This document shows positions 1,142-4,782 of a DNA stretch of 64,000 nt, piece after piece. The DNA is from Bacteroidia bacterium (lineage in GTDB: Bacteria; Bacteroidota; Bacteroidia; J057). The notes beneath the pieces are model-generated. The model was given only the letters and a program-made list of their open reading frames with translations, ran no database searches and was not told where the DNA came from. A program made the position numbers and the translations under genes. Location: contig JAUIKF010000011.1 in the NCBI GenBank assembly GCA_030430575.1, forward strand, positions 1 to 64,000, written 5' to 3'. Position 1 is the first letter of the stretch. Each line of letters opens with the position of its first letter.

Positions 1142-1174
1142 AGCTGATGCCGTAGCTGGCATCAGCTTTTTTTT
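1142..1174 (+). terminator. Intrinsic terminator ending the 890-1174 unit
   Basis: A perfect 10-bp stem (AGCTGATGCC at 1142-1151, GGCATCAGCT at 1158-1167) with a six-base loop is followed directly by a T run at 1167-1174. It separates the mini-ORF region from the riboswitch promoter. Confidence 0.85.
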
Positions 1175-1190
1175 ATGTCTATTTTTCTCG

Positions 1191-1198
1191 TACCTTCG
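1191..1198 (+). promoter_or_regulatory. -7 box of the riboswitch promoter
   Basis: TACCTTCG matches the Bacteroidota -7 consensus TAnnTTTG with one change. It ends four bases before the 5' strand of riboswitch helix P1 (1203), as expected if transcription starts at the aptamer. The -33 region falls in the T run of the upstream terminator and is not a clear TTTG. Confidence 0.6.
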
Positions 1199-1202
1199 CC
1201 CC

Positions 1203-1406
1203 GTCTTGGGTGCTGGACTTCCCATTCGGGAAGGAAAGTGAAAAGGGAAACAGGTGAAAATCCTGTACTGTTCCCGCAGCTGTAAGCACCGTTTCAAGAT
1301 TATTGATTGATTCAATAATCTCCTCTGCCTGCGATCCTCAAACCACTGAGTCTGTGACTCGGGAAGGTCCGCAGCGCTGATGCAAGTCAGAAGACCTGCC
1401 CAAGAC
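1203..1406 (+). promoter_or_regulatory. Cobalamin (adenosylcobalamin-class) riboswitch
   Basis: All main parts of the aptamer are readable. P1 is GTCTTG (1203-1208) with CAAGAC (1401-1406). The core has GGGAAACAGGTGAAAATCC (about 1245-1263), the motif CCCGCAGCTGTAAGC (about 1273-1288), and a B12-box-like segment with GCAAGTCAGAAGACCTGCC (about 1382-1400). The stem near 1298-1322 (AAGATTATTG and its partner) is a peripheral helix. It lies about 190 bases before the propeller gene at 1600. Short hairpins in the intervening leader (for example GACTAC/GTAGTC near 1478-1492) could form the expression platform. Family knowledge says such switches turn genes down when corrinoid is plentiful; this predicts that the gene at 1600 serves corrinoid uptake or use. 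Confidence 0.93.
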
Positions 1407-1599
1407 AGGATAGTCTTTCTTTCGGTGAAAAGGGAAGGCTGAGATAAAGTTGAATTTCAACCATTTTTTGGATGGAGACTACTAGGTAGTCCTCACGTTC
1501 GTTTTTGATTACGAATGGACATTATTTGTTCATTCCCTTCTTCGGTTATGCCTACAGAAAGAATTTTCAATTTTTATATCTCTTTTATCACTTTTTATC

Positions 1600-3147
1600 A
1601 TGAAACACAACTACCTACTAATCAGCCTATTACTTCCTCTTATCTGCTTCATATTTGCCCCAAGCCTTTCAGCCCAAATCACTTCCGAGCGCCTTGTCAT
1701 TGGCAATGGAGGGCAGTTTGGCAATCCTTTGGAAAATGCCCATGTCATCTTCTATGACCTTGAGGGAGACAGTATTCAATCGGTCGACACCATCCAAACC
1801 CAGTCTGTTCAAGATCTGCTAATTGAGGGGGCTTATGCTTATGTAGCAGCCCAAGACTCCATCGTGAAGTACTTTATCCCCACGGGCGAACGTGTGGCGG
1901 CAACGGCATTTGGCCTGCCTAGTACGGTGAAGCTTGCCATTTACGACAGCCTGTTGCTGGTGGGCAATTGGTATGGAGCTACTGATGGCAATTTGCGGTT
2001 GTTTCATAAGGAGACCTTGGCATTTGAGGATGCTATCCTTGGAATTACGAAGGGGGCAACTGACTTTCTCATCAGAGGCGACTCTGCTTATGTGGTGCAG
2101 AATTATCCTACGGCTGCCTTTACTGACTCAGCGGGCTATTTGGCAGTGGTCGATTTGAAAAATCGCATGTGGGTCAGGGATATTACTTTTGCAAATAATG
2201 ATGAGGAACTTGGCAGAATCTTAGTCTATGATAACCTTCTTTATGGATTCAATTCTAGTTCAGAGACGGTTACTACCTATGATTTTCAAAATGGGGCTTC
2301 CAATACCGTTGATGCTAATGTCAACCTACAGCTATTTCCAAATGGTCAGCAGTTCTTTTTAAGGGGAGATTCTCTCTATTTGCCCTATGACAATCGCCTC
2401 AATATCTGGTGGATGAATACGAATTCACACTTGACAAGTCAAATAGATACTGCAGAAATAGTGGCGATGGTATACGACTCAGTTAACAACCATATTTATC
2501 TTACCCAAACAGACTTTTTCTCTTATACACAAGGCACTAGATGGGATGGCAATACCTTGCAAAAAACAGGTACATTTCCTGTTGGGAGTTCTCCACAAGC
2601 GATAGGTATCGCCTATAACAACCCTCCCACAGCCATCGACGACTATTCTTTTGCTACAGCCAATATCCCCTTAATGGTGGATGTGACTGCAAATGATATT
2701 GACCCTGAAAATGACCCTTTGACGGTGAAAATCGTCACGCAACCTGGAACGGGTATGGCTTCTGTGGTTGGTAATCAGATTCTCTACCTTAGTCCGATTG
2801 CAGGTATTGGTGACTGGATGGAGTATTCTGCTACCGATCCTTGGGGAAAGACGGACACCGCATATTTATATTTTGGAAGCTTTGAATCCATCGACCCAGC
2901 CCTATTCGGCGAAGTAAAATTGTTCCCCAATCCCGCAGAAGATATGATGAAATTAGAATTGGAAAAAATGCCTACTCATCCCATCCATCTCTCCATCCTT
3001 GACCTTCAAGGAAGAGAGGTATACCAGCAAAAAGTATTTGGCACCAATTCGCTTCAACTTCCTGTCAGTCAGCTCAGTAGCGGCAGTTACCTCTTGCGAT
3101 TGAGCAATCAGGAAGGCAGTGGGACGATCAGGTTTGTCGTGAAATAA
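1600..3147 (+). CDS. T9SS-exported beta-propeller protein under cobalamin riboswitch control (BtuG-like candidate)
   Basis: The 515-residue product has a signal peptide (1-25, ending SLSAQ), a repetitive beta-propeller-like region (about 26-340, with short blades such as AYVAAQDSIVKYF), an Ig/cadherin-like module (about 343-425, starting NNPPTAIDDYSFATANIP) and a T9SS type A sorting domain (about 440-515, with LFPNPAED and SSGSYLLRLSNQ). The T9SS would place it on the cell surface or outside. It is the first gene after a cobalamin riboswitch. In Bacteroides, BtuG, a seven-bladed surface lipoprotein, captures corrinoid for BtuB; by analogy this may be a T9SS-anchored corrinoid-binding protein. 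That role is inference from the riboswitch and fold. No btuB-type receptor lies in the window. Confidence 0.8.
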   Translation: MKHNYLLISLLLPLICFIFAPSLSAQITSERLVIGNGGQFGNPLENAHVIFYDLEGDSIQSVDTIQTQSVQDLLIEGAYAYVAAQDSIVKYFIPTGERVAATAFGLPSTVKLAIYDSLLLVGNWYGATDGNLRLFHKETLAFEDAILGITKGATDFLIRGDSAYVVQNYPTAAFTDSAGYLAVVDLKNRMWVRDITFANNDEELGRILVYDNLLYGFNSSSETVTTYDFQNGASNTVDANVNLQLFPNGQQFFLRGDSLYLPYDNRLNIWWMNTNSHLTSQIDTAEIVAMVYDSVNNHIYLTQTDFFSYTQGTRWDGNTLQKTGTFPVGSSPQAIGIAYNNPPTAIDDYSFATANIPLMVDVTANDIDPENDPLTVKIVTQPGTGMASVVGNQILYLSPIAGIGDWMEYSATDPWGKTDTAYLYFGSFESIDPALFGEVKLFPNPAEDMMKLELEKMPTHPIHLSILDLQGREVYQQKVFGTNSLQLPVSQLSSGSYLLRLSNQEGSGTIRFVVK

Positions 3148-3291: not shown

Positions 3292-4782
3292 ATGCGCCTT
3301 TTAATTCTTTTTAGCCTTATTTCCCTCCTCCCCTTTCCCTGCGCCTTCGCCAACAACCTCCAACTCGCCCAACCAAGGCTCTTGAACCAGACTTCCTTGG
3401 CCGTCACCATCTCCTGGGACAATAGCTGGCTATTGGCAAGTAATCAACCCCCAGCCAACCACGACGCTGTCTGGTTATTTCTAAAGTACCAAACATCCCA
3501 AGGCGATTGGAAGCATGTGGACCTGAGTACTTTGGATGGAGATTTTGGGGTAATGGGAAATGTATTGGAAATCAAGGCGGTAAGTGATGGGAAAGGGATA
3601 TTTGTAAAAAGGGCAATGATGGGCGCTGGAACTATATCACCTACTGTGATTCAACTGGCGTTTGCCACTCCCCTCCCCCCTTCCTTCCAAGACCTCAAGG
3701 TCTTTGGCATCGAGATGGTTCACATCCCAGAAGGGCCGTTTTGGCTGGGGGATAGCGCCCAGTTCAATCATTTCCGAAAAGGTGACAGCGCGGGACCCTT
3801 CCCCGTTACTTCAACGCTACAGATTCCTGTAGGCACTGCGTCTGGGACGCTCTACAATGGTGGCGATGCGCCGCCAGCGGCAGATATCCCTGCCGCTTAC
3901 CCCAATGGCTACGACGGGTTCTACCTCATGAAATACGAACTCGGCCAGGCCCAATACGTCGATTTTCTCAATTGCCTCACTTATCCCCAACAAGCTGCCC
4001 ATACGGTCAAATCTCCCGACTCTCCAGTCGGTACCTATGTGCTCGCCAACCTCTCCACCAATCCCCAGCGCAACGGCATTGTGATCGCCCAGTCAGGCAT
4101 AGCTGGCATGCGTCCTGCCCGATTTGCCTGTGACGCATCAGGTGATGGGAGGCATTCTCGTCCAGACGATGGCCAAACGCGCGCCTGTAACTTCCTGAAC
4201 TGGCAAGACCTGCTGGCCTATCTGGACTGGGCCGCCCTACGGCCCATCACCGAACTGGAGTTCGAGAAGGCATGCCGAGGCCCTGAATACCCTGTCCCCC
4301 GCGGCTTCGCCTGGGGCACAGCTAGCGTCATCGACGCCAATACCATCGTTCAAGACGGTACCGAGAACGAAGGTGTCACTGAGACCGCCACAGCCACGGC
4401 GGGCCTCGCAAGCCACGGCTACAGTGGGCTGGATGGGCCGCTAAGAGCTGGTTTTGGGGGGCATGCTACAAGCAATCGCTTGCAAATCGGCGGAAGTTAT
4501 TATGGGGTTCTGGAACTGAGTGGAAATGTCTGGGAACTCTGCGTGAATGTGACCTTGGAGGGTCTTAATTATGATGGAAAACTGGGAGACGGAACGTTGG
4601 ATATCACTGGCCAAGCGGATGTGGCCAATTGGCCAATATCTGCGGGCGTTGGCCACCGTGGAGGCGCCCTGTTCAGTGGGATTGTGGGGGAATTTCGGGA
4701 CCTGGCCATCTCAGATCGGTTCTATGCGGAACTGCATCCTGGTCTGCGTCGTCATACGACGGGTGGACGGGGGGGGCGGTGA
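3292..4782 (+). CDS. Exported SUMF1/FGE-fold (EgtB/PvdO-like) protein
   Basis: The 496-residue product has a signal peptide (1-20), an N-terminal beta domain (about 21-135) and a formylglycine-generating-enzyme-like domain from about 140 (GIEMVHIPEGPFWLGD) to the end, with typical segments YDGFYLMKYELGQAQYVDFLN, RPITELEFEKACRG, YYGVLELSGNVWELCVNV and the closing GGRGGR. The end has no Cys pair of the kind that does catalysis in true FGE, so it is more likely a structural or binding relative. There is no T9SS tail. It follows the propeller gene by 144 bases on the same strand; whether it shares the riboswitch transcript depends on the hairpin at 3177-3247. Confidence 0.82.
   Translation: MRLLILFSLISLLPFPCAFANNLQLAQPRLLNQTSLAVTISWDNSWLLASNQPPANHDAVWLFLKYQTSQGDWKHVDLSTLDGDFGVMGNVLEIKAVSDGKGIFVKRAMMGAGTISPTVIQLAFATPLPPSFQDLKVFGIEMVHIPEGPFWLGDSAQFNHFRKGDSAGPFPVTSTLQIPVGTASGTLYNGGDAPPAADIPAAYPNGYDGFYLMKYELGQAQYVDFLNCLTYPQQAAHTVKSPDSPVGTYVLANLSTNPQRNGIVIAQSGIAGMRPARFACDASGDGRHSRPDDGQTRACNFLNWQDLLAYLDWAALRPITELEFEKACRGPEYPVPRGFAWGTASVIDANTIVQDGTENEGVTETATATAGLASHGYSGLDGPLRAGFGGHATSNRLQIGGSYYGVLELSGNVWELCVNVTLEGLNYDGKLGDGTLDITGQADVANWPISAGVGHRGGALFSGIVGEFRDLAISDRFYAELHPGLRRHTTGGRGGR

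Follow-up and report, generated by a model that had tools for sequence, protein, structure and literature searches.

A cobalamin riboswitch precedes a BtuG-related propeller protein with a predicted type IX secretion tail in Bacteroidota

In Bacteroides, the proteins BtuG, BtuH, BtuJ and BtuK have been described as lipoproteins of the cell surface or as accessory proteins that bind B12 (PMC6143338, PMC10404256, PMC8941943, PMC12751083, PMC13398666). BtuG (BtuG1-3, Bacteroides thetaiotaomicron; PDB 8bmy, 8bai, 8okv, 3dsm) is a DUF5074/YncE-like surface lipoprotein with a seven-bladed propeller. BtuH and DUF4465 (BtuJ) are likewise B12-binding accessory extracellular proteins of cobalamin-riboswitch operons, but they contain no propeller: DUF4465/BtuJ is a jelly roll (PMC12751083, PMC13398666), and the domain of BtuH was described as being without close structural relatives (PMC8941943). 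BtuK1 (BT_1486, PDB 9s6c) is a B12-binding lipoprotein, which acts as an accessory in a riboswitch-controlled operon (PMC12751083). Outside this genus, a cobalamin riboswitch precedes a TonB receptor in Flavobacterium psychrophilum (PMC9723704). Here we describe a locus of a Bacteroidia bacterium (GenBank assembly GCA_030430575.1), in which a cobalamin riboswitch leads into the gene of a BtuG-related propeller protein, predicted to be exported by the type IX secretion system (T9SS). The locus lies in a stretch of 64 kb, positions 1 to 64,000 of contig JAUIKF010000011.1, which is called the window below; the contig begins at window base 1, leaving 1.2 kb visible upstream of the riboswitch locus. 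We file the family to which this protein belongs as a T9SS-exported sister of the known BtuG, within the cobalamin-riboswitch regulon.

The window protein resembles BtuG in its superposable propeller and in its occurrence in Bacteroidota, and its family also shares with BtuG the linkage to riboswitches and btuB, of which the window has the riboswitch only. Unlike BtuG, which has a lipobox and an export signal, the propeller family has a T9SS tail. The likeness to BtuK1 consists in the propeller fold, with a Z score of 25.4 that is no higher than that of unrelated propellers, and in the accessory role within an operon under riboswitch control; the family profile did not match BtuK1 (9s6c) in PDB sequences at E ≤ 1, and BtuK1 differs in being a lipoprotein. 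With T9SS type A cargo the window protein has in common the signal peptide, the immunoglobulin-like linker and the Por_Secre_tail, while it differs from such cargo in its predicted cobalamin-riboswitch control and in its propeller of the BtuG branch. The features of the locus are as follows.

1191-1417, plus strand: cobalamin riboswitch aptamer RF00174, scoring 94.8 bits where the gathering score is 31.5 (E 2.5e-22)
1191-1198, plus strand: -7 promoter box TACCTTCG, with 5 of the 6 fixed bases of the Bacteroidota-type TAnnTTTG
1418-1605, plus strand: expression platform, with a predicted helix in which about 1420-1432 pairs with the start-codon region at about 1591-1605
1600-3147, plus strand: T9SS-exported (predicted) BtuG-related propeller protein of 515 amino acids, the first open reading frame (ORF) behind the aptamer, intact
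1600-1674, plus strand: Sec signal peptide, read from the sequence, with probable cleavage between SLSA and Q26
1681-2622, plus strand: propeller, residues 28-341, from the AlphaFold2 model and the superposition on BtuG
1846-1872, plus strand: segment AAQDSIVKY, residues 83-91, in which QDS aligns with NNS of BtuG
2617-2862, plus strand: Big_9 immunoglobulin-like domain, residues 340-421, 43.8 bits
2920-3138, plus strand: T9SS type A C-terminal sorting domain, residues 441-513, matched by PF18962 and TIGR04183

The covariance-model match to RF00174 spans the whole model (189 of 189 positions). In the whole window genome, G000 (8.16 Mb; 150 of 303 first-look candidates scored), there was no second match over the cut-off, and the next best ones reached 12.9 and 12.5 bits. 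The sequence TAnnTTTG, which we take to be the Bacteroidota -7 consensus, stands in its exact form next to the aptamer of 18 of the family's 20 leaders, compared with 6.6% of mononucleotide shuffles; the motif TTG is found in the -33 region of 7 of the 20 leaders, the window leader being without it. The -7 box overlaps the first bases of the covariance match, hence the 5′ end of the riboswitch RNA is probably near 1203. A strong intrinsic terminator was sought between the aptamer and the start codon, and only a weak site at 1496-1517 was found, so that an end of the riboswitch transcript before 1600, which an earlier note on this DNA had named as a result that would speak against its reading, is not indicated. 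The folding of the window leader is predicted to be stable (z -2.77; 2 of 200 shuffles equally stable), and the predicted pairing with the start-codon region suggests that the riboswitch in the window perhaps acts by hiding the start codon. The leader of one related locus, L048, is unlike that of the window, with a long hairpin and a T run reaching the ATG, which by reading resembles an intrinsic terminator.

The domain architecture of the encoded protein agrees with this note, which had proposed a cobalamin aptamer with its own promoter ahead of a T9SS-tailed propeller. The probable SLSA cleavage site fits the Bacteroidetes Q-rule (PMC5837995), and the structural model has a helix at residues 3-19, within the signal peptide. 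By reading, a standard lipobox is not present (the segment PLIC has I before C), so the mark of a surface lipoprotein, as in BtuG, is missing. The sorting domain scored well over the cut-offs of both models (PF18962, 50.4 bits against 27; TIGR04183, 43.7 bits against 23), and it was matched in 23 of the 24 rows of the family alignment; the missing row must be L029, because its sequence had been trimmed before the tail, and the full L029 ORF has the tail. The Big_9 domain was matched in 3 of the 24 rows. No Pfam or NCBIfam model was over the cut-off on the window propeller, and some family members had weak partial matches to repeat models (DUF6923, LVIVD).

The kinship of the propeller to BtuG was examined by both structure and sequence. 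The AlphaFold2 model, made with the 24-row alignment, had a mean predicted local distance difference test score (pLDDT) of 83.9 and a predicted template-modelling score (pTM) of 0.70. Foldseek ranked 3dsm (BtuG of Bacteroides uniformis, E 1.7e-13) first among the PDB entries, closely followed by the YVTN protein 1l0q and by designed propellers, and in VIA-align 11 BtuG entries ranked first (Z 27.6-28.8, root-mean-square deviation 2.5-2.8 Å, 287-294 residues, 14-15% identity). Profile-profile comparison (hhalign) with ten operonic DUF5074 proteins gave a probability of 99.0 (E 6.1e-18). The 24-row profile, run against PDB sequences, reached BtuG chains at E values between 7e-6 and 2e-5, the matches being confined to profile positions 227-334, and no non-BtuG propeller domain had an E value below 0.1. 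PF16819 (DUF5074) was not among the matches of the window protein at E ≤ 10, and it matched 1 of the 24 family members (E 0.0025); a viral fold library gave no match bearing on the identity of the propeller. These data bear out the earlier expectation of a fold similar to BtuG/DUF5074, and they speak against the possibility, also named there, that the propeller could be unrelated to BtuG.

Joint alignment with BtuG2 showed that Asn54, Gly56, Gln93 and Ser109 are common to both groups (at least 90% in each). The BtuG residues Asn107-Asn108 correspond to Gln-Asp in 24 of 24 rows, which changes NNS to QDS, although this is partly a selection effect of the search pattern. The use of QDS as a family signature was rejected as circular, because AQDSIV[KR]Y was itself a search pattern and the more distant members L056-L058 are without QDS. 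At the position of Tyr335 of BtuG2, half of the rows also have Tyr, and the window protein has Phe. The upper-ligand cavity of BtuG2 is narrowed by Trp194, Trp272 and Tyr316 (PMC10404256). Trp194 and Trp272 are kept neither in the propeller family nor in the ten operonic BtuGs, so their loss says little on binding. We read the propeller, from these alignments, as a sister branch of BtuG with its own pocket, and not as BtuG itself.

To see how often the propeller is accompanied by a riboswitch, the window's taxonomic family was searched (13 genomes, including G000). The propeller was found in 3 of the 13 genomes, G000, G009 and G012, and in each of them it sits behind the single cobalamin aptamer that was found over the cut-off in the genome. 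In G001, G002, G006, G007, G008 and G010, an aptamer instead precedes a TonB receptor, which is followed by a T9SS-tailed DUF4465 protein or a DUF5074 lipoprotein (neighbours assigned by Pfam in G001, G008, G010 and for one of G006, and the rest read from sequence); in G010 the T9SS-tailed DUF4465 protein is the second gene of such an operon. The propeller profile, then of 3 rows, was also applied to a genome collection of 84,980 species, where 24 loci were obtained from 78 matches to the peptide patterns AQDSIV[KR]Y and [FI]YL[TS]QTDF; since the patterns were peptides, the choice of the loci was independent of the RNA. Nearly all of these loci are labelled Bacteroidota, and two of them, L029 and L030, appear to repeat the loci of G009 and G012. 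In 19 of the 24 (L029-L044, L048-L050), an aptamer that exceeds the gathering score was located directly upstream, on the strand of the propeller gene. The distance from the aptamer end to the start codon was 38-201 nucleotides (20 leaders including that of the window, with starts picked by eye). At the level of whole genomes, aptamers over the cut-off occur in 17 of the 22 genomes behind L031-L052, and 16 of the 17 yielded no aptamer other than the one before the propeller (at most 72 first-look candidates scored per genome, and places matched to loci by coordinates).

In a further search at the level of the order, 22 genomes yielded three more distant members, L056-L058 (G013, G020, G021), for which no upstream aptamer was present in the DNA stretch examined. 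L057 and L058 have a match to the BtuB profile immediately upstream (337.6 and 142.5 bits), that of L058 being cut by the locus end. All three match the propeller profile, and L056 and L057 also weakly match the BtuG profile (about 24 bits); it is possible that they are intermediates between the propeller and BtuG branches.

Several side observations were made in the same loci. The G009 orthologue (L018:3681-6548) is a protein of 955 amino acids with two tandem propeller-plus-Big_9 units and one T9SS tail; the second of these units is a copy that has diverged, scoring 103 bits with the propeller profile. Locus L041 (BPGB01000009.1) is labelled Candidatus Woesearchaeota and carries a Bacteroidota-type T9SS/btuB operon with a riboswitch; this contig is probably misassigned. 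A second cobalamin riboswitch in G010 (L026:4968-8256) precedes the small and large chains of ribonucleotide reductase, with a 4HBT thioesterase between them, and a similarity reading showed that L027 of G001 resembles this locus.

The operon context was analysed with BtuB and BtuG profiles, and with a profile for a protein of about 320 amino acids, which were run on the 24 loci and the first 20 kb of the window. BtuB is encoded in 10 of the 24 loci (L035, L036, L038, L039, L041-L045, L048; eight of them are rows of the profile), while L040 has a weak 26-bit receptor match only. A BtuG lipoprotein is encoded in 8 of the 24 loci, which also have BtuB, so the family differs from BtuG as well in that it coexists with a canonical BtuG. 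The typical order is riboswitch, propeller, the protein of about 320 amino acids, BtuB and BtuG lipoprotein. There is no BtuB in the locus in 10 of the 19 aptamer-bearing cases, among which L030, L031 and L040 have little or no downstream DNA. Searching the 22 genomes for BtuB gave 18 with matches of at least 470 bits (eight of them profile rows), 2 with partial matches and 2 with none at E ≤ 1e-30; in G023, G024, G025, G028, G040 and G041, BtuB is located away from the lone propeller. A tree of the 24 propellers, with an arbitrary root, has btuB-linked members in both deep halves and requires at least 3 state changes, and the lone loci cluster; the lone form is represented, for example, by L037 of Aureispira sp. 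CCB-QB1. The presence of btuB-linked members in both halves makes it more likely that the separation from btuB came later than that it was original.

The protein of about 320 amino acids forms a T9SS-tailed family of its own, with the segments DFAVFEN and FLELAFVEVSSDG; half of the 24 loci (12) encode it, in most cases as the gene next to the propeller on its downstream side (L036:9205-10167; also L031, L032, L035, L038, L039, L041, L043, L044, L045, L048; L046 partial). In the single member scanned with Pfam, nothing but the tail was matched, the PDB relatives at E ≤ 0.01 were T9SS tails only, and the structural model was poor (pLDDT 59.6). It is probably a second unnamed B12-operon protein. 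The L036 operon closes with genes for two further proteins, one of the Peripla_BP_2 type and one an ATP pyrophosphatase of the Diphthami_syn_2 type, and the same was read by similarity for L038, L039 and L043. Another T9SS-tailed protein, of 419 amino acids and itself BtuG-like, is encoded in a riboswitch-btuB-DUF5074 operon of G001 (L022:10307-11566), with scores of 34.5 bits to the BtuG profile and 14.8 bits to the propeller profile; judging from this protein, T9SS tails may have been joined to BtuG-type propellers more than once.

The riboswitch and the propeller gene are flanked by two further features, listed below.

1142-1175, plus strand: terminator-like hairpin and T run that closes the preceding unit, with 11 pairs, 6 of them G-C, and the tail TTTTTTTATG
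3292-4782, plus strand: SUMF1/FGE-sulfatase-like protein of 496 amino acids, PF03781 43.2 bits, a possible second gene of the unit

Terminator-like sites were counted over 4 kb, with 6 observed compared with 4.0 in shuffles. The SUMF1/FGE-like neighbour has a counterpart in the same place in G009 (L018:6521-8023), 62% identical, so that it is shared by both genomes of the genus. In the 64-kb window no match to the BtuB or BtuG profile was found at E ≤ 1, and the BtuB profile detected no canonical BtuB in either genome of the genus (G000, G009). The best BtuB-profile matches were 164.4 and 66.3 bits in G000 and 127.5 bits in G009, compared with 652-822 bits in the six genomes of the family that carry a btuB operon; as 5 of these 6 are profile rows, the fair comparison is with G002 (652) and the lone-propeller genomes (470-642). 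The absence of btuB that had been noted from this DNA thus holds for the window, while it does not hold for the family as a whole, in which btuB stands in line with the propeller in 10 of 24 loci. Distant TonB receptors of G000 could still import B12, and therefore the absence of a B12 importer in this genome does not follow. A fragment in G012, matched by the BtuB profile with 217.6 bits over 227 positions, probably belongs to a real BtuB that is truncated by a contig end.

Other components related to B12 were also searched for in G000. A divergent BtuG-like lipoprotein is encoded on another contig (145 bits to the BtuG profile, 44.6 bits to PF16819), with no BtuB match in the 17 kb around it. 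FecCD permease had no match in G000 at E ≤ 1e-10, whereas each of the other 12 family genomes has at least one; given the 127 contigs of the assembly, this could be an assembly gap or a real loss. Three proteins with B12-binding domains were found (frames of 720, 1229 and 1163 amino acids), which by size we take to be methylmalonyl-CoA mutase, MetH and a fused mutase; their presence means that G000 has a use for corrinoid. The T9SS translocon component SprA was matched with 2190.7 bits.

Given the riboswitch, the domain architecture, the relationship to BtuG, the recurring linkage to riboswitches and btuB, and the SprA and B12-binding-domain proteins of G000, we consider it fairly probable that the window locus is a B12-repressed gene for extracellular corrinoid capture. 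When cellular corrinoid is low, the empty aptamer would let the mRNA be expressed, and the protein would pass through Sec and then the T9SS, to be placed on the outside of the outer membrane or released. Outside the cell, the propeller would bind corrinoid and pass it to a TonB-dependent transporter, in most relatives a BtuB encoded in the same operon or genome, and plentiful corrinoid would make the aptamer shut the gene. Several observations weigh against this interpretation. In VIA-align, 6-phosphogluconolactonase propellers stand just below BtuG (Z 26.9 and 26.8), and Z differences under 1 are ties, so that the fold alone cannot single out BtuG; it is the family's sequence comparisons that do so. 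The window protein on its own obtains chance PDB matches only and is scored with 2.9 bits by the BtuG profile, and the best propeller match of the 3-row profile was a YVTN S-layer protein (E 0.006), with BtuG not reached in the PDB; the sequence link of the window protein to BtuG runs through the family, and not through this protein alone. The NNS, SPR (131-133) and Tyr316 positions, which do not vary among BtuG2 and the ten operonic BtuGs, are not kept. Five of the 24 loci are without an aptamer at the gathering score, namely L052, where a sub-threshold match of 25.0 bits overlaps the ORF start, and L045, L046, L047 and L051, where there was no match. Finally, BtuG is already encoded in 8 of 24 loci, and a separate job of the propeller is hard to see there. 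A generic WD40/YVTN protein is disfavoured by the linkage to riboswitches and btuB, and not by the fold alone.

The same observations can be explained in other ways. The propeller could belong to the B12-uptake regulon without binding corrinoid, serving BtuB or the protein of about 320 amino acids as a partner or lid, or acting through vesicle release as reported for BtuL. This explanation, which we consider doubtful, would account for the loss of NNS, SPR and Tyr316 and for the loci in which capture is already covered by BtuG, and it has a parallel in BtuL and BtuK2 of B. thetaiotaomicron, which showed no B12 binding (PMC12751083). On the other hand, 10 of the 19 aptamer-bearing loci have no BtuB in the locus, which in six genomes is encoded elsewhere, and a role purely bound to BtuB does not fit the window's genus, where no canonical BtuB was found. 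For this genus in particular, it is conceivable but unlikely that capture is independent of BtuB, with the T9SS-exported and sometimes doubled propeller as the sole riboswitch target, possibly released as a "cobalophore", and with a non-BtuB transporter, possibly bypassing a FecCD-type permease.

Adhesins and enzymes are common among T9SS type A cargo, and many propellers of the same fold bind other ligands. The ligand of the propeller could instead be a glycan, the surface of a host or an alga, or a foreign B12-binding protein, and the propeller could be induced when B12 is short in order to reach a source of the vitamin. The altered BtuG motifs and the unrelated SUMF1-type neighbour in the window are consistent with such a role, but the sequence kinship among solved structures goes to BtuG and the family is strongly tied to riboswitches and btuB; we consider another ligand quite improbable. 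Even less probable, to a degree that we regard as very slight, is that the window locus is a relic of an ancestral riboswitch-btuB operon that lost btuB, so that the riboswitch and the first gene were left without a B12 role. The distribution of BtuB-linked loci over both deep tree halves, the clustering of the lone loci, the lack of canonical BtuB in G000 and G009, and the missing FecCD match of G000, compared with 12 of 12 other family genomes, would be expected for a relic; yet the aptamer and the ORF are intact, the two are retained together in G009, where the propeller is even present twice, proteins with B12-binding domains are still present, and the lone arrangement recurs in several genomes.

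The suggestion that the family is undescribed agrees with the literature, searched mostly outside subscription papers, in which no account of a T9SS-exported BtuG-related propeller family was found, although this is not proof of novelty. The corrinoid capture by surface propellers that is known so far is the work of lipoproteins of gut Bacteroides, and the family described here suggests a second branch, delivered by the T9SS, in other Bacteroidota. The propeller persists where btuB has moved away or was not found, and in most genomes searched it stands behind the sole cobalamin riboswitch found. The description of the family lets T9SS propeller proteins of this type be annotated, and it offers a direct biochemical way to ask whether a secreted protein, instead of a lipid-anchored one, can scavenge B12.

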